Virus record (IMG/VR): IMGVR_UViG_3300025127_007327
Location: 1 to 64,000 of that record
DNA length: 64,000 nt
Source of the DNA: a virus
Strand: one strand, 5' to 3'
The notes under the pieces are model-generated. The model had not been told where the DNA came from, did not search any database, and saw only the letters and a list, made by a program, of their open reading frames with translations. The translations under genes and the position numbers were made by a program. Positions 1,886 to 29,550 of this stretch are shown here, one piece after another. Within the stretch, counting starts at the first letter, position 1, and the number at the start of each line of letters is the position of its first letter.

Positions 1886-2838
1886 ATGTTAGAAATTTAA
1901 TCGAAGAAAACTATTTGCACTTTAATGCTGGTGAATTGAGAGATGCCTTACGTGCTTTGGAAATCCATATCGAAAAAGGTAACAAGATATTTATCACGTT
2001 GTCGGGAGCTATGAGCACAGCCAGAATCGGCCGTTTATTGGCACCAGCCATTCAAAAAGGCTTGATTGGCGGAATCTGCTGCACCGGAGCAAACCTTGAA
2101 GAAGATGTTTTTAATGCTATTGAGGGTCATCGATATAAACAAGTTGATTGGCGTAGTTTGTCTCCGAGCGATGAAGAAAAATTAGTTAAAGATGGCTGGA
2201 ACCGCGTAACTGACACTTGTATACCTGAAAATGTTATGCAACATGTGTGGGGATTATTACTAGAATCTTGGAATGAACAAAGTGGTAAAACTCCTTATTT
2301 TCATTTGTGTTGTGTTTTAGATAAACTGATTGAAGATGGCGTTATAGTCCCACGATTAAATGAGTCTTGGGTTTGGGCAGCGCATAACGCTGGTATACCC
2401 GTATTTGTTCCCGGCTGGAGTGACAGCACAACAGGTAACATGTTTACTGCCAGTGTAAAGAAGGGTGAGATCAAAACAGGTTATAACGCTGTTGTAAGTG
2501 ATACTGAACAATTTGCGATATTAGCAAACTGGTACGAATCACAAATTACTGAATCCGGTGAAAGCCCAGCATTTCTTCAAATTGGTGGGGGTATTGCTGG
2601 AGATTGGCCGATATGTGTTGTTCCATCTTTAAGGCAAGATGAAAACAAAGATGTTCCGCATTGGGGCTACTTTTGTCAGGTTTGTGATGCACCAGCGTCG
2701 TATGGTGGGTATTCAGGGGCGCCCCCAAATGAAAAGATTACATGGGATAAAGTTTCAAGTCAAACACCTAGATTTGCTATACAATCTGATGCAAGTATTG
2801 TATTACCTTTGATATTGGACTATTTATTAACGAAATGA
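1882..2838 (+). CDS. Deoxyhypusine-synthase-like enzyme
   Basis: A 318-residue protein of full family length. Recognisable blocks are ITLSGAMSTARIG (38-50), ICCTGANLEEDVFN (65-78) and the C-terminal PPNEKITWDK (281-290) followed by SDASIVLPL (302-310). These match the deoxyhypusine synthase family, including the active-site lysine, here Lys290 at bases 2749-2751. Family enzymes use NAD to transfer the aminobutyl group of spermidine to a lysine (archaea and eukaryotes). Bacterial relatives make homospermidine or related polyamines. Bacteria lack eIF5A, so a polyamine product is the more likely role here. It is coupled to the ureohydrolase-like gene upstream (ATGA) and to the first tagged gene downstream. 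The identity is firm; the substrate is not. Confidence 0.85.
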   Translation: MNVRNLIEENYLHFNAGELRDALRALEIHIEKGNKIFITLSGAMSTARIGRLLAPAIQKGLIGGICCTGANLEEDVFNAIEGHRYKQVDWRSLSPSDEEKLVKDGWNRVTDTCIPENVMQHVWGLLLESWNEQSGKTPYFHLCCVLDKLIEDGVIVPRLNESWVWAAHNAGIPVFVPGWSDSTTGNMFTASVKKGEIKTGYNAVVSDTEQFAILANWYESQITESGESPAFLQIGGGIAGDWPICVVPSLRQDENKDVPHWGYFCQVCDAPASYGGYSGAPPNEKITWDKVSSQTPRFAIQSDASIVLPLILDYLLTK

Positions 2839-2860
2839 AACTCCTACTTGAAAATTGGCG
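2835..2860 (+). repeat. Tag repeat copy 1 (26 bases, start of coding region)
   Basis: The first 26 bases of this gene are identical to those of the genes at 3259, 3630 and 3977, including the synonymous Leu codons CTC-CTA-CTT. Identity with copy 2 extends to 33 bases. Confidence 0.95.
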
Positions 2861-3275
2861 AGAGTATGTGAACGAAGTGGTGGATGATGTATTCACGGGA
2901 AACTGTGGTATGTTTGGTATTGCCTTGGCTGAAGAAGCCCAAAGAAGGGGTATTGACGCAGCATTAGTATTTGCACATAACGCTGATACAGATGAAGAAA
3001 TGATCTATGGAGACTATAAAATTTACCATGTAGCCTTAAAGATCGGAGACAAGTATTATGATGGCAGAGGGGAAATCCGATTAAATGAATTAGTATCATT
3101 TATGTTCGAGGTGCCGGAAGATATGAATGTTGATGCTTTTAATCTTGCAAACCTAGACCAGATGAAAAGTGCTATTCGTCGCAACACGGCTTGGAGTGCG
3201 ACCTGCAAGGATTTCAAAGAAAAGGCAAAACAATTTTTAGATGAAATGGGGTATACAAATGAAACTCCTACTTGA
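2835..3275 (+). CDS. Tagged protein 1: papain-like Cys-protease-type fold
   Basis: A 146-residue protein beginning with the shared peptide MKLLLENWREYVNE. After the tag, GNCGMFGIALAEEA (about residues 22-35) supplies a candidate catalytic Cys followed by a helix. YHVALKIGDKYYDGRGEI (about 64-81) supplies a His and an Asp in the order seen in NlpC/P60- and papain-like hydrolases. The function is therefore guessed from the Cys-His-Asp arrangement only. The start overlaps the upstream stop by ATGA. It is the first of four consecutive genes with the same N-terminus. The YVNE end of the tag is a V-x-E variant of a prohead-protease-like site. Confidence 0.65.
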   Translation: MKLLLENWREYVNEVVDDVFTGNCGMFGIALAEEAQRRGIDAALVFAHNADTDEEMIYGDYKIYHVALKIGDKYYDGRGEIRLNELVSFMFEVPEDMNVDAFNLANLDQMKSAIRRNTAWSATCKDFKEKAKQFLDEMGYTNETPT

Positions 3276-3284
3276 AAATTGGCG
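3259..3284 (+). repeat. Tag repeat copy 2 (26 bases)
   Basis: Identical to the other three copies over 26 bases and to copy 1 over 33 bases. It encodes MKLLLENWR plus EYLTE. Confidence 0.95.
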
Positions 3285-3633
3285 AGAGTATTTAACAGAA
3301 AATATGAATATCAAGTCGAGCGATGATATAGAATTCTTAGTTCGTTCTATTCATATGGAAGAGGATGATTTTGTAGAGGGGGATCTGATAGATAGGATAA
3401 GGCAATATCCTTATTATATTCTTAAAGATATTGAACTTGATAAAATAGAGACGGCGTGGACAGATCTAGGCAAAGTTGATGATTATGCCGAAATGTATGA
3501 TCAAAGAGGCACAGAACCGCCTCCTGTCGTTTTAGATCACACACTATATACGATAGACGGTGCACACAGAGTAGAGGCAGCAAGAGAAGCGGGCAAAGAA
3601 AAAATAAAAGCTTATGTGGGGACATTCGGATGA
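3259..3633 (+). CDS. Tagged protein 2: ParB/sulfiredoxin-fold-like
   Basis: A 124-residue protein that starts with MKLLLENWREYLTE, so the ATG at 3259 is preferred to the in-frame ATG at 3241. The C-terminal third, PPPVVLDHTLYTIDGAHRVE followed by AAREAG, has the V-x-D(G)xHR pattern of the ParB/Srx (Spo0J N-terminal) nuclease/CTPase fold. It overlaps the previous gene by 17 bases and ends in GTFG, with its stop overlapping the next tagged start. The neighbouring gene at 3630 is a diverged relative, so a tandem duplication is likely. Its molecular role is unknown. Confidence 0.7.
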   Translation: MKLLLENWREYLTENMNIKSSDDIEFLVRSIHMEEDDFVEGDLIDRIRQYPYYILKDIELDKIETAWTDLGKVDDYAEMYDQRGTEPPPVVLDHTLYTIDGAHRVEAAREAGKEKIKAYVGTFG

Positions 3634-3655
3634 AACTCCTACTTGAAAATTGGCG
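3630..3655 (+). repeat. Tag repeat copy 3 (26 bases)
   Basis: Identical over 26 bases, after which the tag diverges to DTSWE. The five bases before the ATG (TTCGG) are shared with copy 4. Confidence 0.95.
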
Positions 3656-3980
3656 CGATACATCGTGGGAAACTGATAATGATAAGGTTACAATTGGGGA
3701 TGTGGTTGATTATTTGGGAGATGAGACTGTTAATATTAATGTTTTAGAACTCTCGCAACAATTACCGTCTTTGCCAACACAAGGAGCAGAGAGAGTAGCT
3801 GCCGCAAGTTTAGAGTATCCAATTAACGTTGTGAAGAGCGGTGGACAATATCGATATGTTCTGGATGGTAATCATCGTCTTCAAAAAGCAATCGATAAAG
3901 AGGTCGAGAGTATAAAAGCAAAAATCTTGGATCTAGATAATACAGAAACTCCAGAAGTGTTTAAGAGAACGTTCGGATGA
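3630..3980 (+). CDS. Tagged protein 3: ParB-fold-like paralogue
   Basis: A 116-residue protein starting MKLLLENWRDTSWE. YPINVVKSGGQYRYVLDGNH followed by RLQKA (about residues 63-87) is again a ParB/Srx-type DGNHR motif, and the protein ends RTFG like its upstream neighbour ends GTFG. It looks like a duplicate of the gene at 3259 that has diverged. The tag has lost the YL(N/T)E end, so if the tag is normally cleaved, this copy may not be. It is coupled by ATGA to genes on both sides. Confidence 0.7.
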   Translation: MKLLLENWRDTSWETDNDKVTIGDVVDYLGDETVNINVLELSQQLPSLPTQGAERVAAASLEYPINVVKSGGQYRYVLDGNHRLQKAIDKEVESIKAKILDLDNTETPEVFKRTFG

Positions 3981-4002
3981 AACTCCTACTTGAAAATTGG
4001 CG
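3977..4002 (+). repeat. Tag repeat copy 4 (26 bases)
   Basis: Identical over 26 bases. It encodes MKLLLENWR plus KYLNE, and the upstream TTCGG is shared with copy 3. Confidence 0.95.
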
Positions 4003-4582
4003 AAAGTATTTAAATGAAAATATTGAAACAGCAACTCGTTTATCTATTTTTGATTTTGATGAAACAATAGCATTTTCTGAAGGATATATTATTGTTATAG
4101 ATAAACAAACTGGTAAACAATTTAATATTTCATCTCAAGAAGAATATGACAAACTTAAAAATGATGGTGGTTACGAGTTTGATTTCTCTCCACTTGATCA
4201 AGTAAACAATGCAGTTGAGAATCCAAATATTACTTCTATTTTACGAGACAGACTAGCTGACTCAAATACGCAAGTCATGATTTTAACTGCTAGAGCACCG
4301 GTGGCAATCGACGATATTCACAGAGTATTACAAACTTTTGATGATCCAATTAAAACAAATAATATTATTATGATTGGCAACGAAGGTGGAAATAAAGGTG
4401 AATATGTTAGGGATGTCATACTTTCAAAATATGATAATATTAGAGAAATAGAATTTTATGATGATTCTGATAATAATATTGTTGACATGAAAGCAGTAAA
4501 AAACGAAACATCTGAAAATGGTAGAGTGGAAAACTTTGATATTTATAAAGTAGTAGAAGGTATTCCAGAAAAAGTGCCCTGA
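3977..4582 (+). CDS. Tagged protein 4: HAD-superfamily phosphatase-like
   Basis: A 201-residue protein with the shared tag MKLLLENWRKYLNE followed directly by a HAD fold. Motif I is IFDFDET (24-30, Asp26 nucleophile and Asp28), motif II is MILTAR (about residue 100), and the metal-binding motif IV is FYDDSDNN near residue 160. This matches the acid-phosphatase or polynucleotide-kinase 3'-phosphatase type of HAD protein known in phages. The substrate is not visible from sequence. It is the last tagged gene, and the next gene starts 30 bases later with its own strong ribosome site. Confidence 0.8.
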   Translation: MKLLLENWRKYLNENIETATRLSIFDFDETIAFSEGYIIVIDKQTGKQFNISSQEEYDKLKNDGGYEFDFSPLDQVNNAVENPNITSILRDRLADSNTQVMILTARAPVAIDDIHRVLQTFDDPIKTNNIIMIGNEGGNKGEYVRDVILSKYDNIREIEFYDDSDNNIVDMKAVKNETSENGRVENFDIYKVVEGIPEKVP

Positions 4583-6944: not shown

Positions 6945-7196
6945 ATGTCATTAGACAAAGCGTGGAAAGATTTTTTAAATGAGAGTGTTGATGAAAAGAC
7001 TATCTTTACCTATATTCAAGGTCTCCAAGAAATTATTTCCAATCTTAAACCAAGAACACTAACTGAAAAACGAAGGTTACAGTTAGCGAGACAGCACTTA
7101 CGTGAAGTTAAAAGATTTGCACGTAAATTGAATAATGACATTGGTGTTCTTCAAGAAAAACTTAATATACTGGAAGAGTCAAAAGGAGATGAATAA
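6945..7196 (+). CDS. Small helical protein with tag-like N-terminus
   Basis: The ATG at 6945 follows an AGAGGA ribosome site and is preferred to the TTG at 6885. The 83-residue product opens MSLDKAWKDFLNES, resembling the tag of the genes at 2835-4582 (a W, then a basic residue, then FLNE). It continues as a charged helical protein (LQLARQHLREVKRFARKLNN). If the tag is a prohead-targeting peptide, cleavage would fall after FLNE. Its stop overlaps the start of the next gene. Confidence 0.65.
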   Translation: MSLDKAWKDFLNESVDEKTIFTYIQGLQEIISNLKPRTLTEKRRLQLARQHLREVKRFARKLNNDIGVLQEKLNILEESKGDE

Positions 7197-9139
7197 TGGC
7201 GAAAGCTAATACTCATCTCACACACTTAGAAGAATTGGTGCTTACCCAAGGCTCAGATGGTTATAACATGGCTAGAGCCTTCCTTCTAGAGCTTTTAAAG
7301 GTTCTTAAGGGTAACACCAAGTCTAAGATTCAAACGTCCGTCAAATGGGACGGAGCGCCTGCTATTTTCGCTGGCACAAATCCTGAAAATGGTAGGTTCT
7401 TTGTTGGTACTAAATCTATTTTTAATAAAGTACCAAAGATTAATTATACCGAAGAAGATATTGTTAAGAATCATGGGCACGCGCCCGGACTAGTTGATAA
7501 ATTAACCAAAGCTTTACGGTATTTGCCGGCACTCAAGATCCAAAACATTCTGCAAGGTGATTTTATGTTTGACGATGGAATGGTGTCGACTATTGAAGTT
7601 GATGGTGAGCCTCATTATCGTTTTAAACCAAACACCATTACATATACAGTCCCTGTAAACTCTGATCTTGGAAGAGAAATTGGTGAGTCTAAGTTTGGAA
7701 TTATTTTTCACACAACTTATAATGATTTAGATGGCAATGCTAGTTTTGGCGCTGACATATCTGGACTTAGAAAAACACCCGGAGTGTGGTTTGATGATGC
7801 ATACTTCGATGATAATACCGGCGTTGTGACGTTAACGGAGGATGAAGAGGCAGAAATTGTTAGATTAGTAACAGAGGCTGACGAAGTTAATGAACGCATT
7901 AATTATGAAGACCTACCCGCGGCACTTTTAAACATTTATATTAATAGTGAAATTAAAGCTGGTAACTTTTTAGAAGATCCAGAAAGCTCGTATGAGGGAT
8001 TCTTAAACTGGTATTCACAACGTTCTCAAAAGAAGATAAACAATCTTAAAAGTGTGAAAGGTAAACAAAAAGCAACACAAAACACTAGACAGACTTTACA
8101 ATCTTTTAAAGAAAGAAGAGAAGACATAGAGAATATTTTTAGGATTAGTCGATTATTATTTGAAGCTAAAAACATTTTTATTCAAAAATATAACAACGCT
8201 GTTTACAGAACAAGACATTTTATTGAAAATGAATCTGGAGATTTAGTTGCTAGTAATCCAGAAGGATATGTCGCTGTGGATCATCGAGGCAATGGAATAA
8301 AATTTGTTGATAGATTAGAATTTAGTAAAGCTAATTTTGCCATTGATAAAAGTGATAAGTTCTCGTCTGAACTAAATGAAGATGAGGATGAAGACGATGA
8401 TCCGGTTGTTGATGACGAATATCCAAAAACAATTGCCATTGTTCCCGGTGCATTTAAGCCACCACATAGAGGACATTTAGACATGGTGCGAAAATATGCT
8501 AACATGGCTGATGAAGTTATTGTTTTAATTTCTCGCCCTACTAAAAGCGGTAGAAGACTACCAAACGGTAGAGAGATAACTGCTGAAGATTCGTTGAAAA
8601 TATGGAAAACTCTAGCGGCCGGTATGGGCAATGTTGATATTAGAATTTCGCCCCATGCATCACCATTAACTGCTGCATATGAATACATTGGCGATGAAGG
8701 ACCAATTAATGTTGGTGATAGAGTTATGTTGGGTTGTAGCAATAAAGGTGGCGATTGTAAAAGATGGACTGGAGCAGTAAAGTACATTAAGCAAGGAGTT
8801 GAATTGGTACCGGTGACCGGTGTGGAGCCAACACAAAGAGATAGTGGGCAGCCATATAGTGCAACAGATTTTCGTAATGCGCTCGGTGATCCTAATAACA
8901 ACCGCGAGGAAATCGCTGATTTTGTTGGTGCAGAGAACGTTAATACAGTGTTAGATATACTTGGGCTCGATACCATCGATGAAATGTCAGGAGCGGGTGC
9001 TGTTGGGGGATATGCAGCCCCTTTGGGATATGGGTCGGTTAGACTCAAAAACAAAAAGAAAAAGAAAAACGAATATATCGATTTAAGTTTGATTGACGAG
9101 GTTATGAAACTAATTAAGGAAAGAGGCATTGTAAAATGA
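7196..9139 (+). CDS. KxDG ligase-like domain fused to HxGH nucleotidylyltransferase
   Basis: A 647-residue two-part protein. The N-terminal half contains SVKWDGAPAIFAG, with Lys50-Trp-Asp-Gly53 matching the KxDG nucleotide-attachment motif of ATP-dependent DNA/RNA ligases. GRFFVGTKS about 20 residues later is a plausible second strand of that fold. An acidic linker (NEDEDEDDDP, about 395-404) leads to VPGAFKPPHRGH (about 415-426), the GxFxPxHxGH motif of cytidylyl/adenylyltransferases, followed by YSATDFR, an ISxTxxR-like motif. I know related proteins from marine T4-like phages, with no established role that I recall. It may charge itself or a substrate with a nucleotide. The C-terminus is Lys-rich (KNKKKKKNE). 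Confidence 0.75.
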   Translation: MAKANTHLTHLEELVLTQGSDGYNMARAFLLELLKVLKGNTKSKIQTSVKWDGAPAIFAGTNPENGRFFVGTKSIFNKVPKINYTEEDIVKNHGHAPGLVDKLTKALRYLPALKIQNILQGDFMFDDGMVSTIEVDGEPHYRFKPNTITYTVPVNSDLGREIGESKFGIIFHTTYNDLDGNASFGADISGLRKTPGVWFDDAYFDDNTGVVTLTEDEEAEIVRLVTEADEVNERINYEDLPAALLNIYINSEIKAGNFLEDPESSYEGFLNWYSQRSQKKINNLKSVKGKQKATQNTRQTLQSFKERREDIENIFRISRLLFEAKNIFIQKYNNAVYRTRHFIENESGDLVASNPEGYVAVDHRGNGIKFVDRLEFSKANFAIDKSDKFSSELNEDEDEDDDPVVDDEYPKTIAIVPGAFKPPHRGHLDMVRKYANMADEVIVLISRPTKSGRRLPNGREITAEDSLKIWKTLAAGMGNVDIRISPHASPLTAAYEYIGDEGPINVGDRVMLGCSNKGGDCKRWTGAVKYIKQGVELVPVTGVEPTQRDSGQPYSATDFRNALGDPNNNREEIADFVGAENVNTVLDILGLDTIDEMSGAGAVGGYAAPLGYGSVRLKNKKKKKNEYIDLSLIDEVMKLIKERGIVK

Positions 9140-9918
9140 ACCAACAAGAAGAACAAATCTTAAGACAGAGTATAAGAGAAATTATTCGCTCTGTCAAGAG
9201 TAAAAAACTAAATGAAGAAACTCAACTTCGTAAGTTAATCCAAGGTTTTTTGGATATTGAACTTAAAAACTTGAGTGAAAATGTTAGTGACACGGACCCA
9301 ACTCCAAATAAGTCTACTGGAATTAATGTTTTGGAACAGTTATTGAAAAAAATAGTTCCGATTATTGAAGAGGACTACAAGTCTCTAACAACAGATAAAA
9401 ACCAAAGAGATTCTTACAGATCACACATTGTTAACGCTGTGGTTAATACTTTAACTCCTGTTGAAATCAACAATGATGCACATAAAGGTGAGTCTGAAGG
9501 CATAAAAGATATGGAAGAGGAGGTATCAATAAATGTTGGCGGTTCTGATGATGATAAGTTTATCGATATTCGCACTGATGCCGAGAAATCTGCAGATGAT
9601 GAAGAAAAGGAAGCGGATCCGAGAGATTCGTTCGGAGCGGGCGTCGAAGGTGACGAAACTGGGCGTAATGTGGCGTACCAATCGTTCAAAAAAATAGAAA
9701 CAAATATTATTGATGCTTATGAATTACTTTCAAATCCTGAAGACCAAGAATTGTTTTATGATTATTTAATCGCGAATCTTAAACTTTACTTTAAAAAGTT
9801 CGAGCAAGAATTAGAACCATCAGTCGATGAACCTACAAACAAAGCTTATGATATGGCGGCCGCTGATCAACCAGCAACTGAGCCGGCGGATGATGACGCA
9901 ACTGAATTGGAATTATAA
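9136..9918 (+). CDS. Conserved acidic phage protein, probable head/structural
   Basis: A 260-residue acidic protein. The N-terminal 50 residues are an amphipathic helix region with KKLNE and KNLSE, both (L)-x-E. The middle is disordered and acidic. DKFIDIRTDAEKSADDEEKE and YELLSNPEDQELFYDYLIAN (about residues 189-208) are blocks I recognise as conserved in marine myovirus genomes. No enzymatic motif is present. It overlaps the previous stop by ATGA and is abutted by the next gene. A prohead-core or scaffold-like role fits the composition but is inference. Confidence 0.65.
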   Translation: MNQQEEQILRQSIREIIRSVKSKKLNEETQLRKLIQGFLDIELKNLSENVSDTDPTPNKSTGINVLEQLLKKIVPIIEEDYKSLTTDKNQRDSYRSHIVNAVVNTLTPVEINNDAHKGESEGIKDMEEEVSINVGGSDDDKFIDIRTDAEKSADDEEKEADPRDSFGAGVEGDETGRNVAYQSFKKIETNIIDAYELLSNPEDQELFYDYLIANLKLYFKKFEQELEPSVDEPTNKAYDMAAADQPATEPADDDATELEL

Positions 9919-19908: not shown

Positions 19909-21192
19909 ATGAAAAAACATAAAATTTTAGTTTTGTCTGATCATCCTCTCTCACCTTCCGGTGTGGGTACACAGACAAAATATATGATTGAAGCACTTTT
20001 AAAAACCGGAAGATATAAATTTGTTTGTCTAGGTGGAGCAATAAAGCATGCTGACTACACACCACAAAAAGTAGAACCATGGGGTGATGATTTTGTCGTT
20101 ATACCAGTTGACAATTACGGAAATGATGAAACTATTAGATCAGTTCTGAGAAAAGAGAAGCCAGATGTGCTTTGGTTTATGACAGACCCAAGATTTTATG
20201 AATGGCTTTGGCAAATGGAAGACGAAGTTAGAGCTTTGGTTCCTATGGTTTACTATCATGTTTGGGACAATTTCCCAGTGCCAATGTATAATAAACAATT
20301 TTACGATTCAACTGACTATGTTGTGTCGATATCAAAGGTTACAGAAAAAATTGTTAGCACTGCATCGCCAGATTCGTTTGCTGCACATATACCACATGCT
20401 GTTAATCCAACATTTTTTAAGAGATATACAGACGCAGAAAACTTAGAAAAAGTAAGAAATATTAGAACTAATCTAATAAATTCTAGCAATGTTTATAACA
20501 ATCCAAGAAAAAAGGTATTCTTTTGGAACAATAGAAACGCTAGACGCAAGCAGTCTGGAACTCTTATATGGTGGTTCAAAGAATGGCTCGATAAGGTTGG
20601 TCATGATAAAGCGATGCTATTAATGCACACTGACGCTCAAGATCCACATGGGCAAGACTTGCCCCATATTTTACAACATCTCGGTCTTAATCAAGGTCAA
20701 ATATTGCTTTCGACTACAAAAGTTGGTGCTCAAGAACTTTCAGTGATGTATAATGCTGCTGATTATACAATTAATATCTCTGATGCTGAAGGTTTTGGCT
20801 TATCCACACTTGAATCAATGTCGTGTGGAACTCCAATTATTGTAAACATGACAGGTGGTCTACAAGATCAGGTTACTGATGGTTCAAATTGGTTTGGCTG
20901 GGGAATTAAGCCCACTTCAAAGACTATTATTGGTTCACTACAGGTGCCCTACATCTACGAAGATAGAATTTCTCAAAAAGATTTTGAAGCAACACTAAAC
21001 AAAGCATTAAAATTAAGCAAGAAAAAGTATTCAGAATTATCTGATAAATGTGTCCAGCATGTAAAAGATAACTTTAATTTTGAAACTTTTGAAAAATCTT
21101 GGATTGAATTTTTCGACAGGGTTATTGAAGAATCTGGTTCTTGGGAAACAAGAAAAAATTATGACAGATGGCACTTGATGGAGGTAGCATGA
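19909..21192 (+). CDS. Glycosyltransferase, GT4-like
   Basis: A 427-residue GT-B-fold enzyme. The N-terminus, ILVLSDHPLSPSGVGTQTKY, has the glycine-rich first loop, and the C-terminal domain has DAEGFGLSTLESMSCGTPII (about 288-307), the E-x7-E nucleotide-sugar motif of family GT4. The sugar donor is not predictable. It is the first gene of the long glycan run, starting six bases after the nuclease stop, and overlaps the next glycosyltransferase gene. Confidence 0.85.
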   Translation: MKKHKILVLSDHPLSPSGVGTQTKYMIEALLKTGRYKFVCLGGAIKHADYTPQKVEPWGDDFVVIPVDNYGNDETIRSVLRKEKPDVLWFMTDPRFYEWLWQMEDEVRALVPMVYYHVWDNFPVPMYNKQFYDSTDYVVSISKVTEKIVSTASPDSFAAHIPHAVNPTFFKRYTDAENLEKVRNIRTNLINSSNVYNNPRKKVFFWNNRNARRKQSGTLIWWFKEWLDKVGHDKAMLLMHTDAQDPHGQDLPHILQHLGLNQGQILLSTTKVGAQELSVMYNAADYTINISDAEGFGLSTLESMSCGTPIIVNMTGGLQDQVTDGSNWFGWGIKPTSKTIIGSLQVPYIYEDRISQKDFEATLNKALKLSKKKYSELSDKCVQHVKDNFNFETFEKSWIEFFDRVIEESGSWETRKNYDRWHLMEVA

Positions 21193-22454
21193 AAAAAAGC
21201 GTATTATTAGTTGGACCACTTCTTACGAGAAGCGGCTATGGAGAACAAGCACGTTTTGCTCTTAGATCTTTGAGAAGTAGAGAGGATTTATTCGATATTT
21301 ATATTCGGCCGATAACTTGGGGTCATACATCATGGATGACTGAGGATAACGAAGAGCGCCGATGGATTGATGAAACAATTGAAAAAACAATTGCTTACAT
21401 GCAACAAGGTGGTCAATTCGATATGTCTTTACAGGTTACTATACCAAATGAATTTCAAGTGATTGCTAGAGAAAATGTTGGCTATACAGCAGGTATTGAA
21501 ACTACTCACTGTGCTGCACTGTGGATTGAAAAGTGTAATGGAATGAATCGTAATATCGTAGTTTCTAACCATTCAAAAGAGATTATGGATTCCACCGCCT
21601 TTGAAGTTCAAAATAATCAAACAGGAGAAGTTACAGGCACTTTAAGAAATCAAAGAGATTTATTTACTGTGAATTACCCAGTTAAGACTTTTGAAGAATT
21701 ACCAGAGTTAGAATTAAATTTGAAACATGATTTTAACTTTCTTGTAGTTGCACAATTTGGACCTCGTAAAAATTTGGAAAATACAATCAACTGGTTTTTA
21801 AATGAATTTAAAGATGAAGAGGTTGGTATGATTGTTAAAACAAATGTTGCAAAAAATTGTCTAATTGATAGAGAAACATGCATGAATAATATTAGACAAA
21901 TTATTAATTCTGCAAATGTTCCAGAACGCAAGTGCTCTGTTCACTTACTGCATGGTCACATGACTGAGGAAGAAATGCACAGTTTATACTTACATGATAA
22001 AGTTAGTGCATTCGTAGCCTTACCTCACGGTGAAGGCTTTGGATTGCCCATTTTTGAGGCGTCTTATAGTGGTTTGCCAGTTGTATCAGTTGGTTGGTCT
22101 GGACAAAAAGACTTTCTTTATGATGATGATGGTAAAGCCCACTTCTATGAAGTCTCATATGATATGGTTCAAGTCCCCCCAGAAGCTGTCTGGAAGGATG
22201 TTATTGAACAAACAGCAGGATGGTGTGCTGCAAGAGAACAATCGGCTAGAGAACAAATGAGAGCGTGTTACGAAGATATTGTAAACAAGAACGAAGATAG
22301 TATTGCACATGGTGCTTGTGATAGATCAGCACAATTGAGAGAACAATTTTCTGAAGAAAAAATGCATGAAATGTTTGTGAAGTCTTTTACTGGTGAGATC
22401 AAAACAGAAGCCATCAAAGAAGAGGTCGATGAGCTTTTGGCGGACTTAATATAA
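21189..22454 (+). CDS. Glycosyltransferase, GT4-like
   Basis: A 421-residue GT-B-type protein. LLVGPLLTRSGYGEQAR at the N-terminus and PHGEGFGLPIFEASYSGLPV (about 280-299) match GT4 enzymes with E-x7-E. FLVVAQFGPRKNL marks the start of the C-terminal domain. ATG 21189 is chosen over 21168 because GGAGG lies five bases upstream. It follows a similar glycosyltransferase, so the pair may add successive sugars. Confidence 0.85.
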   Translation: MKKSVLLVGPLLTRSGYGEQARFALRSLRSREDLFDIYIRPITWGHTSWMTEDNEERRWIDETIEKTIAYMQQGGQFDMSLQVTIPNEFQVIARENVGYTAGIETTHCAALWIEKCNGMNRNIVVSNHSKEIMDSTAFEVQNNQTGEVTGTLRNQRDLFTVNYPVKTFEELPELELNLKHDFNFLVVAQFGPRKNLENTINWFLNEFKDEEVGMIVKTNVAKNCLIDRETCMNNIRQIINSANVPERKCSVHLLHGHMTEEEMHSLYLHDKVSAFVALPHGEGFGLPIFEASYSGLPVVSVGWSGQKDFLYDDDGKAHFYEVSYDMVQVPPEAVWKDVIEQTAGWCAAREQSAREQMRACYEDIVNKNEDSIAHGACDRSAQLREQFSEEKMHEMFVKSFTGEIKTEAIKEEVDELLADLI

Positions 22455-22456
22455 CC

Positions 22457-23344
22457 GTGGAAAAAGAAATAAAATACATATTTCTTGCAGATGCTTTCTC
22501 AGAACACTTTCAAGGTGGAGCAGAGTTTACTACATCAGCACTATTTGATGGCGGTATTGAACACATTATCGAAAAAACTGGTGGTAAAGATTTTGTTCTG
22601 GGTAAACTAATTTCTGAAGAATTAAGCCTTAACGTATTAGAAAAATATAAAAATGTGCATTTCGTAATTGGTAATTTTCATTATCTTAAAGACGAGCATA
22701 AAATATTTTTCTGCAAGAATATATCTTATTCAATATTAGAATATGATTATAAACTATGTGATTATCGGTCACCACAAATACACAAGCTTGCAGAAGGCAA
22801 ACACTGTGATTGTGCTGAAAGAGTTAGTGGAAAATTAAATGCCGCTTTTTATAGCTATGCTAAAAATGTCTGGTTTATGAGTGATGCACAGCGACAGTAC
22901 TTTTTAGAAAACATTAAAACACTTAAAGAAGAAAATTGTAGAGTGCTAAGTTCAGTATTTGATAGGCGCGACTTAGACTTTATTGAATCTATAAAAGATA
23001 ATAAAAAAGACGAAAAATATTTAATTTTAGGTTCTGATTTTCCAATTAAAAACACACAAGGTTGTGTAAAATACGCTAAAGAAAATAATTTAGAGTATGA
23101 AATAATTAAAGGCTTGCCTTATCATGAATTATTAATTAAACTTTCAACATCTAAAGGTTTGATTTTTCAACCACTTGGATTTGATACATGCCCTAGACTT
23201 GTCATTGAAGCAAAAATTTTAGGTTGCGATCTTATTTTAAGTGATTATGTTCAACACCAGAATGAAGAATGGTTTGCTACTAAAGAGTCAACAGTTGAAC
23301 ACATGCGCTCAAGAGTAGAAGCATTTTGGAGTCACTATGAGTAA
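22457..23344 (+). CDS. Putative glycosyltransferase (GTG start)
   Basis: A 295-residue protein starting with GTG. FLADAFSEHFQGGAEFTTSA at the N-terminus resembles GT-B loop 1, and FQPLGFDTCPRLVIEAKILG (about 237-256) resembles the C-terminal donor-binding motif, with E in place. Shorter than typical GT4 proteins and more divergent. Two Cys-rich spots (GKHCDCAERVSG) are unusual. It overlaps the next gene by eight bases. Confidence 0.65.
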   Translation: MEKEIKYIFLADAFSEHFQGGAEFTTSALFDGGIEHIIEKTGGKDFVLGKLISEELSLNVLEKYKNVHFVIGNFHYLKDEHKIFFCKNISYSILEYDYKLCDYRSPQIHKLAEGKHCDCAERVSGKLNAAFYSYAKNVWFMSDAQRQYFLENIKTLKEENCRVLSSVFDRRDLDFIESIKDNKKDEKYLILGSDFPIKNTQGCVKYAKENNLEYEIIKGLPYHELLIKLSTSKGLIFQPLGFDTCPRLVIEAKILGCDLILSDYVQHQNEEWFATKESTVEHMRSRVEAFWSHYE

Positions 23345-24029
23345 AAAAACTATTGTTGTTATGGGAAATGGTCCCTCGCTTAAGGAAGTTGATTTTGAAA
23401 TGCTCAGGGGTTTTGATACCTTTGGGCTTAACTCAGCTTATAGAGCTTACGAAAGAATGGATTGGTGGCCGAAATACCACGGTTGCTATGATTTTAGAGT
23501 AACTCTTAATCACAGGGAAAGTTTTGAAAATTTAATTGATAATACACCAATTGAAAAATGTTTTTATGTAAAAGATATTAGTGATTCAGAAGGGTTTCAG
23601 TATGTGAACCTACAGCCATTTGGTAGTATGAATAAGTGGAACAATAACACTGATGATTTTGTTGAGTTCAATGATAATGGAAACTCTGGAGCTAACGCTT
23701 GCTCTACCGCTGTTTGTTTAGGATATGAAAGAATTATCCTTTTAGGCGTTGATTGTAATTATGTTGAATTTGTAGATGGTTGTGTTCGTGATGGACCCGG
23801 CTTAAAAATGGAAAAAACACCCGATGAAAATCCAAATTACTGGTTTGCTGATTACCAGCAAGAAGGTGACGAATATAATGTGCCTAGAGGTTTAGATTTG
23901 CACCTGCCCACTTGGAACTATTTTGCTTATCGTGCAATTTGGAATAATATTGAGGTCGTTAATTGTAGTCCTGTATCAAATTTGAACTGCTTCAAAAAAA
24001 TGAGTTTGGAAGAGGCACTAGCTTTATAA
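23337..24029 (+). CDS. GT42/DUF115-like glycosyltransferase
   Basis: A 230-residue protein opening VVMGNGPSLKEVDFEMLRGF (7-26). GNGPSLKE is the hallmark of Campylobacter CstII-type (GT42) sialyltransferases and of the related DUF115 fold. SGANACSTAVCLGYERIILL (about 118-137) followed by GVDCNY matches the second conserved block. GT42 enzymes transfer sialic acid from CMP. Assignment to GT42 rather than DUF115 is not decided by sequence reading alone. It sits in the same operon as a CMP-sugar synthetase and a GT29-like domain. Confidence 0.7.
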   Translation: MSKKTIVVMGNGPSLKEVDFEMLRGFDTFGLNSAYRAYERMDWWPKYHGCYDFRVTLNHRESFENLIDNTPIEKCFYVKDISDSEGFQYVNLQPFGSMNKWNNNTDDFVEFNDNGNSGANACSTAVCLGYERIILLGVDCNYVEFVDGCVRDGPGLKMEKTPDENPNYWFADYQQEGDEYNVPRGLDLHLPTWNYFAYRAIWNNIEVVNCSPVSNLNCFKKMSLEEALAL

Positions 24030-24448
24030 TGTTTGATAAGATTTATTCTAATGTCGAAAAGAATAAGCTTTTGCATATTGTGTGTAGACCTGCAGAACTT
24101 AAAGATGTGAGAAATGATATCGTAGAAGAAGAAGAATATCTGCAACTTGCTATATTAAACTTTAATAAAGGTAAGACTTTTAAGCCTCATAAACATATTT
24201 ATAAGCCAGTTCCTAGTCAAGCAATAGCTCAAGAATCGTGGGTTGTGATGACTGGAAGAGTTGAAGCTATATTCTACGATTTAGATGATACTATTGTTGA
24301 AACAAGGATTTTAGAGGCTGGTGATCTATCAATTACTTTATTTGGTGGACACAATTATAGAATTTTAGAAGATAACACTCTGGTTCTTGAGTACAAAACT
24401 GGACCTTATTACGGACAATCAGCGGATAAAGATTTTATAGGAGAGTAA
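24029..24448 (+). CDS. Cupin-fold protein, WbuC-like
   Basis: A 139-residue cupin. Motif 1 is reduced to FKPHKHIYKP, giving His ligands near residues 52-54, and RVEAIFYDLDD followed by LEAGDLSITL makes the second half of the barrel. The arrangement resembles WbuC-type cupins in O-antigen clusters, of unknown reaction. It is coupled to the preceding gene (TAATG) and lies two bases before a methyltransferase gene. Confidence 0.7.
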   Translation: MFDKIYSNVEKNKLLHIVCRPAELKDVRNDIVEEEEYLQLAILNFNKGKTFKPHKHIYKPVPSQAIAQESWVVMTGRVEAIFYDLDDTIVETRILEAGDLSITLFGGHNYRILEDNTLVLEYKTGPYYGQSADKDFIGE

Positions 24449-24449
24449 A

Positions 24450-25079
24450 GTGGCTTGGGATAACTGGCTTAACGAAAAAAGGTTTACGTTATTTCGTAGT
24501 GCTATTATACAAGAGCAGTTTATACAATGTATTATAGACCACACAAAAAAAGGTGGCAGTATACTGGAAGCTGGTTTTGGATTTGGCACAACAACAGAAC
24601 TGTTAAGAGATTTAGACTTTGACATAACCGGGTTTGATCTTGAAGAAATAGCAGTCAAACAAACTGGTGACAGGTATCCGCACTTAAAAGACAGTCTCTA
24701 TGTTGGAAATATACTTGAACGTCAAACATACACTAAATTTTACGATACAATTATACACCAAGGAGTTCTAGAACATTTTTGTGATTCTGAAATTCTTGAT
24801 ATTTTATTGATACAAGCTGAGAAGTGTAAAAAAATAATATTTGATGTTCCAAATTGCTTAAGAGAATGCACTGATGACGAGGGTGACGGCACCAGATTTG
24901 AAACACCAGAATTTTGGGAGTCCATGATATCTAAAGCTGGTCTTGAATTTAAAAGATATGGCAGAACTTATGATTATGGAAATGATTTACTGCCGAAAGA
25001 ACTTTTAAAATATGATTCTGATTTAATGAAAAGAGTTGGTAGATCAAGTATGTTTGTAGTTGAGGGATTGATTAAATGA
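24450..25079 (+). CDS. SAM-dependent methyltransferase (GTG start)
   Basis: A 209-residue class I methyltransferase. ILEAGFGFGTTTELL (about 38-52) is motif I (ExGxGxG), FDLEE (about 60-64) is motif II, and IIHQGVLEHF marks motif IV/V. GTG at 24450 is used because it follows GGAGAG and sits two bases after the previous stop. It probably methylates a sugar, given its neighbours, but the target is inferred. Confidence 0.8.
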   Translation: MAWDNWLNEKRFTLFRSAIIQEQFIQCIIDHTKKGGSILEAGFGFGTTTELLRDLDFDITGFDLEEIAVKQTGDRYPHLKDSLYVGNILERQTYTKFYDTIIHQGVLEHFCDSEILDILLIQAEKCKKIIFDVPNCLRECTDDEGDGTRFETPEFWESMISKAGLEFKRYGRTYDYGNDLLPKELLKYDSDLMKRVGRSSMFVVEGLIK

Positions 25080-25630
25080 AACTTAATCTAGGTTGCGGCC
25101 GCACCAATATATCCGGCTTCATTAATGTAGATATTAATAAAGATCCACATGTTCATATATCTACAGATGTTACAAACTTAAATATGTTTACTGATGAATG
25201 TGTCGATTTAATTTATGCTAGTGCTTTATTTCAATATTTTGATTTTCAGCAAGGCGTTCAGGCATTAACTGAATGGTATCGTATTTTAAAAACTGGAGGA
25301 GTTCTTAGAATTTCTACTGTTGACTTTGATAAGCTTTTAGAAGTGTATAATAAGTATGATAAAAATATTGACAAAATCATTGGACCAATGTATGGTAGAA
25401 TTTATATAAATAATGATGATCTTGGTACTGATAAAGTTTACCATACTTCTGTTTACACACAAACAAAACTCTTAGGTGTTTTAAAAGAGGTAGGTTTTCA
25501 AACAATTAAACCATACGATTGGAAAAATTCAATACATGCAGAATATGATGATCAAAGTCAATCATACTATCCTCACATGGATAAAGAAAACGGAATACAT
25601 ATTATGCAAAATTGGGAGGCAACCAAGTGA
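25076..25630 (+). CDS. SAM-dependent methyltransferase
   Basis: A 184-residue protein starting directly with MKLNLGCGRTNISGFINVDI, motif I at the extreme N-terminus, as in the short PF08241-like methyltransferases of polysaccharide clusters. DLIYASALFQYFDF and RILKTGGVLRI are the later core blocks. It overlaps both neighbours (ATGA and GTGA), making it a tandem partner of the methyltransferase at 24450. Confidence 0.8.
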   Translation: MKLNLGCGRTNISGFINVDINKDPHVHISTDVTNLNMFTDECVDLIYASALFQYFDFQQGVQALTEWYRILKTGGVLRISTVDFDKLLEVYNKYDKNIDKIIGPMYGRIYINNDDLGTDKVYHTSVYTQTKLLGVLKEVGFQTIKPYDWKNSIHAEYDDQSQSYYPHMDKENGIHIMQNWEATK

Positions 25631-26217
25631 GTTTTGACGACATAAAAACATTTGAACAGCAAATTGCAGACTTTTTTGGTTCCCCATATGCTGTAGCTGT
25701 GGATTGCTGCACACACGGAATAGAATTGTGCCTGAGAGAACAAAATATTTCAATGTTTACAGTGCCGAAAAGAACGTATATCTCAGTTCCATTTTTAGCA
25801 CATAAGCTTAATATTGCTTTTAATTGGCGTAATGAGGACTGGAAAGATTATTACTATCTGGGCGGTACAAATATCATTGATGCTGCTGTATTATGGAAAG
25901 AGAACTCTTACATATCAGGAACGTTCATGTGCCTGAGCTTTCAATATAGAAAGCATTTAAGTCTTGGTCGTGGTGGCATGATATTGACTGACAATAAATC
26001 TGCAGCAGATAGACTTAAAAAGATGAGCTACGATGGAAGAAGCCCTGATATACCGTGGAGAGAACAAAATATAAAAACATTTGGCTATCATTATTACATG
26101 ACCCCCGAAACTGCGGCACTTGGCATTAAAAAGCTTCCTGAAGCTATTAGTACACCACCTAAGCAGTGGACAGTTGAAGACTGGCCAGATTTATCAAAAA
26201 TGGAGATTTTTAAATGA
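25627..26217 (+). CDS. Short DegT/DnrJ/EryC1-type aminotransferase
   Basis: A 196-residue PLP-fold protein. IIDAAVLW (Asp85) and LSFQYRKHLSLGRGGMI (Lys109) match the cofactor-binding Asp and Schiff-base Lys of the DegT sugar aminotransferases. The family is normally about 370 residues. Here the whole C-terminal small domain is absent, yet the gene runs cleanly into the next by ATGA, so it is not an obvious frameshift. It may be a reduced enzyme or a non-catalytic partner. GTG 25627 is chosen because GGAGG lies eight bases upstream. Confidence 0.75.
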   Translation: MSFDDIKTFEQQIADFFGSPYAVAVDCCTHGIELCLREQNISMFTVPKRTYISVPFLAHKLNIAFNWRNEDWKDYYYLGGTNIIDAAVLWKENSYISGTFMCLSFQYRKHLSLGRGGMILTDNKSAADRLKKMSYDGRSPDIPWREQNIKTFGYHYYMTPETAALGIKKLPEAISTPPKQWTVEDWPDLSKMEIFK

Positions 26218-27188
26218 GCAAGAAAACAGCGTTAATCACAGGTATCGGTGGTCAAGACGGTAGCTATTTATCAGAATATTTGCTTTCTTTAGGCTATGAT
26301 GTTTATGGTATGTTCCGCAGACACTCAGTTGCTGAGAATCAAAACTACCGACTGCATGGCTTAAATAAAGAAGTAAAGGGTTTTTACGGAGATATGCTGG
26401 ATTACCCTTCAATTGCTAGAATTGTTAAAGAGGTACAGCCCGATGAGATTTATAATTTAGCTGCTATGAGCCATGTTCGTATTAGCTTTGACATGCCATC
26501 GTTTACAATTAAAACTAATGCACTTGGAGTTTTGCACTTACTTGAAGTTTACAGAACAGAGTGCCCTGAAGCGAAGTTTTACCAAGCATCGTCATCAGAA
26601 ATGTTTGGTAATTCTGTTGATGACGATGGAGTCCAAAGATTAACAACACCAATGAATCCAGTTAGTCCTTACGGCTGTGCTAAAGTCATGGGATATAATT
26701 TAGTCAGACACTATCGCAACGCTTACGGCTTACATGCTTGCAACGGTATTCTTTTTAATCACGAATCACCCCGCCGTGGTTCTAACTTTGTAACCAATAA
26801 AGTTGTAAAAGGCGCTGTATCAATCAAGTATGGTCTGATGGATAAGCTAGAGTTAGGAAACATGGACTCATATCGCGACTGGGGACACTCTAAAGACTAT
26901 GTTAGAGCTATGCACTCAATTATCAATCACGACACTCCAGACGAGTTTATAGTGGCTACAGGAGAGACGCACTCAGTTAGAGATCTTTGTAGAGTGGTAT
27001 TTGAAAAACTTGATATGAATTACGAAGATTATATTGTTCAAAATCCAAAATATATGCGACCCGAAGAACTTAAATACTTAAAGGGTGATCCCTCTAAAGC
27101 AAGAGAATTACTTGGATGGGAACCTGAATATACTTTTGAAAGTATGCTTGAAGAAATGATTGACCGGTGGTCAAGAGAATTAAAATGA
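26214..27188 (+). CDS. gmd: GDP-mannose 4,6-dehydratase
   Basis: A 324-residue extended SDR. GIGGQDGSYL (10-19) is the NADP loop typical of Gmd, SSSEMFG (about 126-132) carries the catalytic Ser/Glu, and SPYGCAK holds the Tyr-x3-Lys pair (about 153-157; SPYAVAK is more usual). NHESPRRG and RDWGHSKDYV are strongly Gmd-specific. It converts GDP-mannose to GDP-4-keto-6-deoxymannose, the precursor of fucose, rhamnose or perosamine. No GDP-fucose synthase is adjacent; the epimerase at 36783 or the aminotransferase at 25627 could act next. Confidence 0.95.
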   Translation: MSKKTALITGIGGQDGSYLSEYLLSLGYDVYGMFRRHSVAENQNYRLHGLNKEVKGFYGDMLDYPSIARIVKEVQPDEIYNLAAMSHVRISFDMPSFTIKTNALGVLHLLEVYRTECPEAKFYQASSSEMFGNSVDDDGVQRLTTPMNPVSPYGCAKVMGYNLVRHYRNAYGLHACNGILFNHESPRRGSNFVTNKVVKGAVSIKYGLMDKLELGNMDSYRDWGHSKDYVRAMHSIINHDTPDEFIVATGETHSVRDLCRVVFEKLDMNYEDYIVQNPKYMRPEELKYLKGDPSKARELLGWEPEYTFESMLEEMIDRWSRELK

Positions 27189-29119
27189 ACAAAAGATTCT
27201 GCGTCTTACAAGTAACTCCAAAGGATCCCAATCCAGAGCATGTAAAGCTTTTTCACAATAGAGAACACTCAGATTTTTACTTTGTTACGTTTGATGAAGA
27301 AAACCCTGATGCTATTAAATTTTGTCCTAATACTATTTGGTCACAAACTAGAAATACTTTAGCTGAACTGGTGCCAAAAAAGTACGATTATTATTTTTTT
27401 ATGGATTATGATATGGGTCTCGAACCACAAGGTGAATTAGACGCATATGAACAAACTTTAAAAGATCTTGAATCTAATCCTGCTGTTTTAACTTTTTATC
27501 CCGGCCGCGGCATTGATAATCCAATCGCACAAGATTTAAATTTTTTGAGAAGCAGAGATTATTCTTGCATACCGTTTACTCACAATGGTATCAAAATTGT
27601 ACACAAAAGCCTACTACAGTGGTTCTTCCCGATGTTTATTAAGCATCGAACTGATACCGATGCTTGTCATATGTTTAACATTCAAGAAATACCATTTTTA
27701 AGAAATGTTGTTTGCAGTCATAAAATTGTTCATCATAATAATCCAACTGATAGTAAAGACACTCAAACATATAATAGTGAAGGTGGATATACAAAATATC
27801 AAATGGATGAAATGTGGAAATCAATTTTACCAGCATTCAAAAAGAAAAAATTATTAAACATTGATGAAAATATTAGTGTTGATGTAAACTACGATTCATT
27901 AAAAATCAAGAATTTTTTTGTTAGTTTGTTTGAAAAAAATAGTTTCGATATCATAAAAAATCCAGATGATGTTGACTACTTTGACTTAGATAAGATTTCT
28001 AAATTTTTTGATTTGAATGATGAGAGGTTTGTAAATGTACATTTATCACTTGAAGAAAAGCAAAAAAACTTTTCAGATGAGTCAAATAAAATAATTGATG
28101 AAGAACTTAGAGGTTTACAATTTGAAGATTTTGTAACTCCTTTAGATCCTTGGCCAGAGATTGCCAATAAAATTAACAGCAGAATTGAAGGAAGAAAGAT
28201 TACATACAATGAGTGTCTTGAATATTATCAAAAATTAAGTGATAATAAATCTTTATTTCACACTAATTCTATATTAGATCCTTCGCTTGAGGAATATCTG
28301 AAAGATAAAACTGTTGCTCTAGTTGGTCCTGCACCTTATTTAGCAAAACACACACACGGTGCTGAGATTGATTCATGTGATGTTGTTGTTAGAATTCAAC
28401 ACAACATTTACAATACTGAATCATATGGCTCGCGCTCAGATATAATACAAAGTTGTTTGAATCCAAATTATGGCATGCCGTTAGTTGAGCATATTAAGGC
28501 AAGTGATTTATCAGACAGACCAAAGTTTATTATATGTAATGACACAGCCGCTGCACAAAAAAGACATGAGCAACCAATAGGCGGTCTAGAATGGCAAGCT
28601 GGTTGGTATTTTAATGATGATATATTTGAGCCAATTTTCAAAGAATTACAAATTCCATTTGTTAATTTAAAAAGAAATGATGGCAAATGGGAGCGCTGGG
28701 CACTTTATTGGCAAGTTTATGCTAAATCTCATGTTGAAAGATTTGGAAAAGGGAGTTATACTACATTTACTGCTAATTTTAATTCAGGGTACGGCGCGAT
28801 TAATATGCTTTTATCTTATCCGGTCAAACAATTAAAAGTCTTTGGTCTTGATTTTTACAACATTGGAAAGCCGCAGCAAAACAAAGAAAAATATAATCAA
28901 TCTTATATTAACACTTATGGCGAAGAAGGTCGTAATTATGGTCCAGACAAACTGCTTCATGATCAATTATCACAGCTTATGCATTTAAAAAACGTTTTGT
29001 TAAAAGATGATAGGCTTATTTTTGATGAGCATGTAAATAATTTACTGAACGATGAAAATTTAGACAGTAGAATTGAAAGATTTAAAACTCTTCCAAAACT
29101 TAAAAGAGATACAAGATAA
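27185..29119 (+). CDS. Two-domain glycosyltransferase with GT29 sialyltransferase-like C-terminus
   Basis: A 644-residue fusion. The N-terminal about 230 residues look like a GT-A enzyme with FFMDYDMG (Asp74-x-Asp76) as the metal/nucleotide motif. After a charged linker, VALVGPAPYL and IDSCDVVVRIQ (about 373-405) match the L sialylmotif. FNSGYGAINMLLSYPVKQLK followed by VFGLDF (about 530-555) matches the S sialylmotif of family GT29. Known GT29 enzymes transfer sialic acid from CMP donors. ATG 27185 (ATGA) is used instead of 27167. The CMP-sugar synthetase is encoded three genes downstream. Confidence 0.75.
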   Translation: MNKRFCVLQVTPKDPNPEHVKLFHNREHSDFYFVTFDEENPDAIKFCPNTIWSQTRNTLAELVPKKYDYYFFMDYDMGLEPQGELDAYEQTLKDLESNPAVLTFYPGRGIDNPIAQDLNFLRSRDYSCIPFTHNGIKIVHKSLLQWFFPMFIKHRTDTDACHMFNIQEIPFLRNVVCSHKIVHHNNPTDSKDTQTYNSEGGYTKYQMDEMWKSILPAFKKKKLLNIDENISVDVNYDSLKIKNFFVSLFEKNSFDIIKNPDDVDYFDLDKISKFFDLNDERFVNVHLSLEEKQKNFSDESNKIIDEELRGLQFEDFVTPLDPWPEIANKINSRIEGRKITYNECLEYYQKLSDNKSLFHTNSILDPSLEEYLKDKTVALVGPAPYLAKHTHGAEIDSCDVVVRIQHNIYNTESYGSRSDIIQSCLNPNYGMPLVEHIKASDLSDRPKFIICNDTAAAQKRHEQPIGGLEWQAGWYFNDDIFEPIFKELQIPFVNLKRNDGKWERWALYWQVYAKSHVERFGKGSYTTFTANFNSGYGAINMLLSYPVKQLKVFGLDFYNIGKPQQNKEKYNQSYINTYGEEGRNYGPDKLLHDQLSQLMHLKNVLLKDDRLIFDEHVNNLLNDENLDSRIERFKTLPKLKRDTR

Positions 29120-29550
29120 TGGGAATAAAAACAAATTCAGACAGCGACTTAGTTAGCGTGTTAAAAAATGATGGTGTTCCAAAATCGGAACTGGTTAAGT
29201 ATGAGAACTGCTCAACTGTGAACTTACAAGAATTACGTGATGATTTAGGAATGGGTTCTTGGGCTGTAAGAATTGCCTATAACGAACTTTTTGGTGGTGT
29301 TGTAATTCAACAACAACCGGGCGAGGGTAATCGGAAACACTTCCACCCAGATGCAGATGAGAACTGGGTAATCCTTGACGGCGAATGGGAGTGGTGGATT
29401 GAAGGTATCGGAACACAACGTGTAAGACAACATGATATTATTGTAGTTCCAAAAAATACATGGCATCACATTAAATGCGTTGGTGATGGTCCCGGTGTTA
29501 GATATGCAATTACAAGACCAGATGTGAATCATGTATACGAAGACGAATGA
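29119..29550 (+). CDS. Cupin-fold protein
   Basis: A 143-residue small-barrel cupin. PGEGNRKHFHPDADENWVIL (about 68-87) is a clear cupin motif 1 with two His and a Glu. RQHDIIVVPKNTWHHIKCVG carries the motif 2 His. It may be a sugar-pathway epimerase/isomerase-like or sensor cupin. It overlaps the following SDR gene by 20 bases. The function is uncertain. Confidence 0.75.
   Translation: MGIKTNSDSDLVSVLKNDGVPKSELVKYENCSTVNLQELRDDLGMGSWAVRIAYNELFGGVVIQQQPGEGNRKHFHPDADENWVILDGEWEWWIEGIGTQRVRQHDIIVVPKNTWHHIKCVGDGPGVRYAITRPDVNHVYEDE

Follow-up and report, generated by a model that had tools for sequence, protein, structure and literature searches.

The tagged operon

The first 64,000 nucleotides of IMG/VR virus record IMGVR_UViG_3300025127_007327 (97,459 bp in full; this 64,000-nucleotide stretch is referred to here as the window) contain four consecutive genes that begin with the same 26 bp, ATGAAACTCCTACTTGAAAATTGGCG, at positions 2835, 3259, 3630, and 3977. 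These are the only exact copies in the window, all on the + strand; none occurred by chance in dinucleotide shuffles of the window, and the first eight codons have no further copy in the remainder of the record. The repeat encodes MKLLLENWR and each copy is the start of an open reading frame (ORF), as described in a first-pass annotation of this DNA, which proposed that the proteins are packed into the phage head, trimmed just behind this N-terminal tag, and injected with the DNA as early effectors. Gene 2 starts at 3259 and not at the ATG upstream at 3241. Behind the shared peptide, tags 1, 2, and 4 read EYVNE, EYLTE, and KYLNE, matching the continuation (E/K)Y(L/V)(N/T)E that had been noticed on three of the four. 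Positions of all features are collected in Table 1.

The tagged ORFs form a single operon in which every junction is an overlap. The ATGA at nucleotides 1-4 of tags 1, 3, and 4 holds the stop of the respective preceding gene, and gene 1 stops at an out-of-frame TGA at nucleotides 15-17 of tag 2 (3273..3275, + strand). Tag 3 (MKLLLENWRDTSWE) is without the continuation seen on the other three. In an alignment of all 7 close relatives, gene 3 begins MKLLLENWR(Q/K)(Y/F)(I/V)TEDWRDTSW, and DNA comparison with them shows that 24 bp, or 8 codons, are deleted in the window between two TGGCG repeats; as gene 3 is intact in every close relative, the window copy represents a deletion of the predicted cleavage site.

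Table 1. Positions of the tagged genes and of the other features discussed (window coordinates unless another record is named).
Feature	Position	Strand	Basis or remark
ACTATTTAT, promoter-like motif ahead of the tagged operon, common to structural genes	2819..2827	+	Strand bias 11 vs 0 in the record
Tag 1, MKLLLENWREYVNE, predicted prohead-targeting propeptide, predicted cleavage after VNE	2835..2876	+	Exact repeat; register W-6, Y-3, V-2, E0
Tagged gene 1, 146 aa, weak YunG-like match	2835..3275	+	ORF; Pfam E=0.0033
Tag 2, MKLLLENWREYLTE	3259..3300	+	Exact repeat
Tagged gene 2, 124 aa, ParB-like cargo (weak match)	3259..3633	+	PHROG 1033, E=4e-4
Tag 3, MKLLLENWR only	3630..3656	+	QYITEDWR segment with predicted cleavage site gone; alignment of relatives and DNA comparison
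Tagged gene 3, 116 aa, predicted ParB/sulfiredoxin-fold cargo	3630..3980	+	AF2 mean pLDDT 87; Foldseek against PDB
Tag 4, MKLLLENWRKYLNE	3977..4018	+	Exact repeat
Tagged gene 4, 201 aa, HAD-like cargo (weak match)	3977..4582	+	HAD_SAK_1, E=2.6e-4; clustering
Conserved gene with minimal motif MSLDKAWKDFLNES	6945..7196	+	W..FL.E retained, with shifts, in relatives
S77 protease, sister record G049	88657-89106
Scaffold-like gene, G049	97331-98569
gp23-like gene, G049	at 98603
Immuto protein with MENFDLKKFLVENKLT	L218:3807-4355		Shared N-terminus
Immuto protein with MENFDLKKFLVENKLT	L218:17632-18633		Shared N-terminus
Immuto protein with MENFDLKKFLVENKLT	L218:18633-18932		Shared N-terminus
Immuto protein with MENFDLKKFLVENKLT	L219:1803-2318		Shared N-terminus

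The domain labels first given to the four cargoes stood in part. Gene 4 is weakly HAD-like, with a match below the Pfam cut-off, and belongs to a HAD-like cargo cluster of at least 36 members; compared with cultured phages, it gave just two weak matches, both in uncultured records. Gene 2 is weakly ParB-like, and the AlphaFold2 (AF2) model of gene 3, with a high predicted local distance difference test score (pLDDT), suggests a ParB/sulfiredoxin-type fold, the top Foldseek matches being Noc, ParB, and sulfiredoxin (best E 1.8e-3). The label that found no support was the Cys-protease-like one of gene 1, which has only a sub-threshold YunG-like match and a poor AF2 model (pLDDT 57) unsuitable for structure search. 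Sequence searches of the PDB gave no significant match for genes 1 and 2. Homologs of gene 1 are 92-98% identical and tagged as well, and those of gene 2, found in other arrays, are likewise tagged and 97-99% identical.

Spread of the tag and diversity of its cargoes

IMG/VR was scanned with a degenerate tag pattern, for which at least 173 matches were listed, and again with a pattern limited to residues 1-8. Counts of tags and records given here cover the matches listed from both scans, pooled and de-replicated, and totals are lower bounds. All listed matches of the first scan start ORFs, with highly varied sequence behind them. At least 324 distinct tagged ORFs fall by BLASTP into at least 144 unrelated cargo clusters, with a maximum of at least 8 tag copies in one record, so the expectation that MKLLLENWR-type N-termini would be found on other domains in related genomes was borne out on a large scale. 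Among the domains recognisable in the cargoes are P-loop kinase/zeta-type, protein kinase, GNAT, NUDIX, poly(A)-polymerase-like, S-adenosylmethionine (SAM) lyase, HD, RNase-T exonuclease, NT5C, and HAD. No ADP-ribosyltransferase (ART) was identified by Pfam among the tagged cargoes, although a few appeared ART-like by eye. PADLOC matches were to generic enzyme domains only, and a classification of the cargoes as defence genes was discarded.

Among 84,980 bacterial and archaeal genomes, the long tag pattern had a single occurrence, in a contig assigned to an Opitutia metagenome-assembled genome, and the tag therefore belongs to the phage world. A tblastn search of cultured phages with the bare 20-residue tag gave no match; a short, X-containing query of this kind is weak, and its result is not evidence of absence.

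Conservation of peptide, predicted cleavage site, and DNA

The tag has a 14-residue consensus, MKLL(L/F/M)ENWR(K/E/Q)(Y/F)LxE. With one sequence taken per cargo cluster, amino-acid and DNA entropy climb to background past residue 14-15, and the only conserved feature of the upstream DNA is an AG-rich ribosome-binding region. Within the tag, codons 1-8 are conserved at the DNA level, with CTCCTACTT (CTC-CTA-CTT) writing LLL in 117 of 162 tags against 0.5 expected. At residues 11 (Y/F), 12 (L/I/V), and 14 (E) it is the protein that is conserved, with third codon positions near-free.

A subset of 73 tags, whose retrieval required nothing past residue 8, is unbiased for positions 9-14; the W six residues before the terminal Glu was fixed by the search pattern. 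Residue 11 is Y or F in 65 of these 73, and a hydrophobic-x-E site lies at residues 10-18 in 64, the corresponding counts for control windows farther into the proteins being 16 and 7. The trimming site proposed by the first-pass annotation, YL-x-E on the model of (I/L)-x-E in T4, thus has its counterpart in the sequences as a conserved [LIV]-x-E just after the tag. Many of the 25 tags without hydrophobic-x-E at residues 12-14 retain a shifted site (NYVLLE, KYLLTE, NTLKE, FILTE, KLLTE). Another 138 ORFs begin differently (MKTKW.., MDFIKSW.., MIHIQENW..) and retain only W..[FYW][LIVMA].(1,2)E within residues 1-25; in controls, W..[FYW][LIVMA].E was found 1.6 times in shuffles and 10, 3, and 2 times at residues 31-55, 61-85, and 91-115. 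Leaders can differ visibly between homologous cargoes while the motif is kept, and in one tagged family a homolog is leaderless. The 138 ORFs with other leaders argue for constraint at the level of the peptide.

Cassette turnover and frame-closing stops

Tagged genes differ between records with near-identical flanks: the order is 1-2-3-4 in the window, 4 only in L155 and L162, 3-4 in L059, 1-4 in L176 and four others, and 2-1 plus two different cargoes in G049. Flanking genes of L155, L162, L059, and L176 are mostly 83-100% identical to those of the window. Junctions of gained or lost genes sit at the tag, as in L162, where gene 4 is preceded by the upstream context of window gene 1. Loss, gain, and reordering of whole tagged genes at the tag agree with the suggestion, made from the exact DNA identity of the four window copies, that the tag moves as a cassette.

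The tag also closes the frame upstream of it. Of 319 tag genes, 157 are preceded by an open frame of 60 codons or more that ends at the tag ATGA, and 32 more by one that ends at the TGA of nucleotides 15-17, giving 189 of 319 that end at out-of-frame TGAs of the tag. Codon 5 is CTT in 158 of 168 Leu tags and TTT in 81 of 84 Phe tags, far over codon usage, which preserves the second stop. Tag DNA may thus be kept alike through both recombination and the closing of upstream frames. L093 has on its reverse strand (position 3233 after reversal) an orphan MKLLLENWRGL with a stop behind it, which resembles a dead cassette remnant.

Prohead protease and head operon

A T4-type S77 (gp21) prohead protease is encoded by each of the 15 tag records of 130 kb or more among the matches listed, and by none of 14 unrelated control genomes; most shorter tag records are without it, as expected of fragments. 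An HK97-type S78 protease, considered as the cleaving enzyme, was rejected, with matches in 0 of 27 tag records. The window's own record gave no S77 protease match. The first-pass annotation had held that lack of such a protease in the genome would speak against its proposal; this does not apply here, as the record ends just past the terminase and portal, and its 130.8-kb sister G049 (77% DNA identity in the terminase-portal region), which carries tag genes 2 and 1, has the protease.

The motif W..[FYW][LIVMA].E occurs within residues 1-45 in 5 of 219 ORFs of 11 head regions, against 0.11 expected. All five lie between the portal and major capsid protein (MCP) genes, four of them directly after the protease, which is the position of the scaffold gene in T4; the G049 gene at this position bears MKYENYALIQENWNKFAVE. 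A position-specific scoring matrix dominated by MKLL missed most of these head-operon forms, which were recovered by the W..[FY]L.E register. The gp23-like proteins retain LL(R/K)E near residue 60, which would be compatible with action of the same protease.

Comparison with T4 and other packaged proteins

Internal proteins (IPs) of phage T4 carry N-terminal capsid-targeting peptides that are removed by gp21 after (I/L)-x-E, and IPI-III and Alt are ejected with the DNA. Mutational work on the IPIII leader, MKTYQEFIAE, assigned targeting mainly to residues 4 and 7 and processing to residues 8 and 10 (PMC9026906). Counted from the terminal Glu, T4 residues Y4, F7, I8, and E10 lie at -6, -3, -2, and 0, the places taken by W, Y/F, L/I/V, and E in the marine tag. 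A regular expression for this register found ipII and ipIII and no other ORF in a 50-kb stretch of T4, and one antisense ORF only in cyanophage S-RSM4, used as a specificity control; the register is therefore not used by all T4-like phages. The first 32 bp of T4 ipII and ipIII are identical, so identical tag DNA in adjacent internal-protein genes has precedent.

The marine tag resembles the T4 capsid-targeting sequence (CTS) as a short N-terminal peptide on otherwise unrelated proteins that ends in hydrophobic-x-E and has aromatic residues at -6 and -3, and also in the S77 protease of the genome, the identical tag DNA of adjacent genes, and the turnover between close relatives. It differs in its peptide (MKLLxENWRKYLxE), in its built-in out-of-frame stops, in the presence of the motif on additional head-operon genes, and in its setting, uncultured marine T4-like phages known here from sequence. 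About 10 T-even IPs have been reported, with diversity among close relatives described, and T4 IP1-3 each block a type IV restriction enzyme (PMC12373910, PMC3012670), whereas the marine tag stands on its far larger number of cargo clusters, many of them enzymatic, and in several copies per record. T4 Alt, an ADP-ribosyltransferase that is packaged and injected and has its ends processed by gp21 (PMC9026906), is a parallel as an enzyme carried in the head for early action, but unlike the marine tagged proteins it has an N-terminus of its own. Ejection proteins of phiKZ and SPN3US have N-terminal propeptides cut by a gp21-related protease, and the diverged gp53 and gp54 of this type are identical in their first 15 residues (PMC5694885). 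These propeptides are mostly over 100 residues long with a cleavage motif of the A/S/G-x-E type, and the case concerns two paralogs rather than a widely shared tag.

Flavobacterium phage immuto (2-6A; NC_055915.1), one of the cultured phages nearest by protease and portal, has an N-terminus, MENFDLKKFLVENKLT, common to four otherwise different proteins. It contains LVE or LTE; the peptide differs from the marine tag and is without W. It is a candidate for an independent capsid-targeting tag. No description of this repeat was found in the literature searched, and no virion proteomics was found in the text of the Baltic Flavobacterium phage paper. Similarly, no printed occurrence of the marine tag peptide was found in the literature examined, nor any report of such a tag system in marine phages. 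T-even IPs and the CTS are known, and the scale and cassette logic seen here are unusual.

A probable packaging signal and its alternatives

Very probably, the tag serves marine T4-like phages as a propeptide for capsid targeting, analogous in function to the T4 CTS, that loads cargo for cleavage and injection; the whole is best read as the T4 internal-protein system on a larger scale and with recombination of its cargo genes. Late in infection, the N-terminal peptide would bind tagged proteins to the prohead core through W8 and Y/F11, and the shell would close around them. The phage's S77 prohead protease would then cut after [L/I/V]-x-E at residue 14, and the mature cargo would stay in the head with the DNA and be ejected at the next infection, as are T4 IPI-III and Alt. 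Recombination at the tag, made possible because all cargo genes start with the same 24-26 bp with stops in both other frames, would drop, add, and reorder whole cargo genes and so quickly change the injected repertoire. Those parts of the first-pass interpretation that sequence can address are all supported, including the T4 analogy, which gains from the matching register and from the motif on genes beside the protease.

An improbable alternative is that the tag docks cargo on some other phage assembly, such as the tail or neck, a replication complex, or a phage-made compartment, with x-E as part of a docking helix. Tag operons are frequently outside the head operon, and in G049 the tag array opens the contig, with the protease at 88.7 kb, as such docking would allow. 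Left without account are a hydrophobic-x-E that shifts with insertions yet stays intact, a register that matches the T4 targeting and processing residues, a motif on genes flanking the prohead protease, and the protease itself in every large tag record listed. Still less likely is that the 26 bp common to the genes act chiefly at the DNA or RNA level (as a recombination hot spot, a translation initiator, or a coupling signal) and that the peptide is functionless. The choice of codons for LLL, the bias at codon 5, and the many upstream ORFs that end at the tag's TGAs all favour a role for the DNA, but neither the conservation of residues 11, 12, and 14 despite near-free third positions nor the 138 ORFs that retain only W..[FY]L.E would be predicted, and the DNA role is probably real and additional to that of the peptide. 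That the four genes are diverged tandem paralogs sharing only an ancestral N-terminus is extremely unlikely, for while the four do stand in tandem, are short, and differ little in size, and a ParB-type fold may be common to genes 2 and 3, unrelated folds stand behind one tag, identity stops at one point in all cargo clusters, and the same genes occur in different order in other arrays.

Several points weigh against the capsid-targeting interpretation. Virion location, cleavage, core binding, injection, late timing, and the early-effector role are inferred from sequence. Conservation at positions 9-14 comes partly from the first search pattern, of which only the 73-tag subset is free. The window's record stops before the protease and MCP region, and the protease is seen in relatives only. 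Passage through the tail tube would be required even of the large cargoes, some of which, judged by cluster representatives, reach 900 aa. Gene 3 of the window has no cleavage site, hence trimming would not be universal. Homology between the marine tag and T4 MKTYQEFIAE is not recognisable, with agreement in register only, and for this reason the tag is classed as a functional analogue outside the T4 CTS family. Cargo types such as SAM lyase, kinases, GNAT, and NUDIX would fit injection and early action on the host but do not prove it.

A broader proposal, about evenly balanced between holding and failing, is that of a plug-in system for injected effectors. One DNA cassette would combine a start codon, a signal for prohead targeting and protease release, a two-frame terminator for the gene before it, and a recombination site, and any ORF acquiring it would become an early effector delivered by the virion, with well over a hundred families exchanged by marine T4-like phages. 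If capsid targeting is correct, a single readable signal would tell from sequence which unknown marine phage proteins travel in the head and enter by injection, turning the cargo clusters from hypothetical sequence into testable counter-defence or take-over proteins of the first minutes of infection. The tag may also offer a second, unrelated address for loading foreign enzymes into phage heads, and clean cassette turnover between near-identical phages would allow an injected repertoire to be watched directly as it evolves.

Upstream motif and neighbouring genes

The promoter-like motif ahead of the tagged operon belongs to a wider pattern. In the regions examined, ACTATTTA is the top enriched 8-mer upstream of genes, two words resembling ribosome-binding sites aside, and its core, CTATTTA, has a strand bias of 80:9 over 14 sequences. 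It lies within 60 nt upstream in 35 of 347 tag genes, its reverse complement in 0 of 347. A late promoter shared by tagged and structural genes is likely from this distribution.

Immediately upstream of the tagged operon (1882-2838) is a homolog of deoxyhypusine synthase (Pfam E=2e-37), an unusual phage enzyme. An ORF at 15-560 has a C-terminal end, ...SLVSNWKDYLRL, that echoes the tag motif, and it is conserved beside the tag arrays of relatives. A DUF6267 domain fused to a cytidylyltransferase-like domain (7196-9139) directly follows the minimal-motif gene at 6945, as in most relatives. A second type of N-terminal helix, MKKSxLKxxIKExLxEVLxE, recurs at 560-1081 and 9136-9918, on several ORFs of L006, and on the gene after the protease in L136-L145, where it is conserved in the head operon. 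Further along, positions 19909-37637 hold an island of about 18 sugar or surface-glycan genes, judged by eye from translations to encode glycosyltransferases, nucleotide-sugar epimerases/dehydratases, a cytidylyltransferase, an isomerase, and a short-chain dehydrogenase/reductase (SDR).

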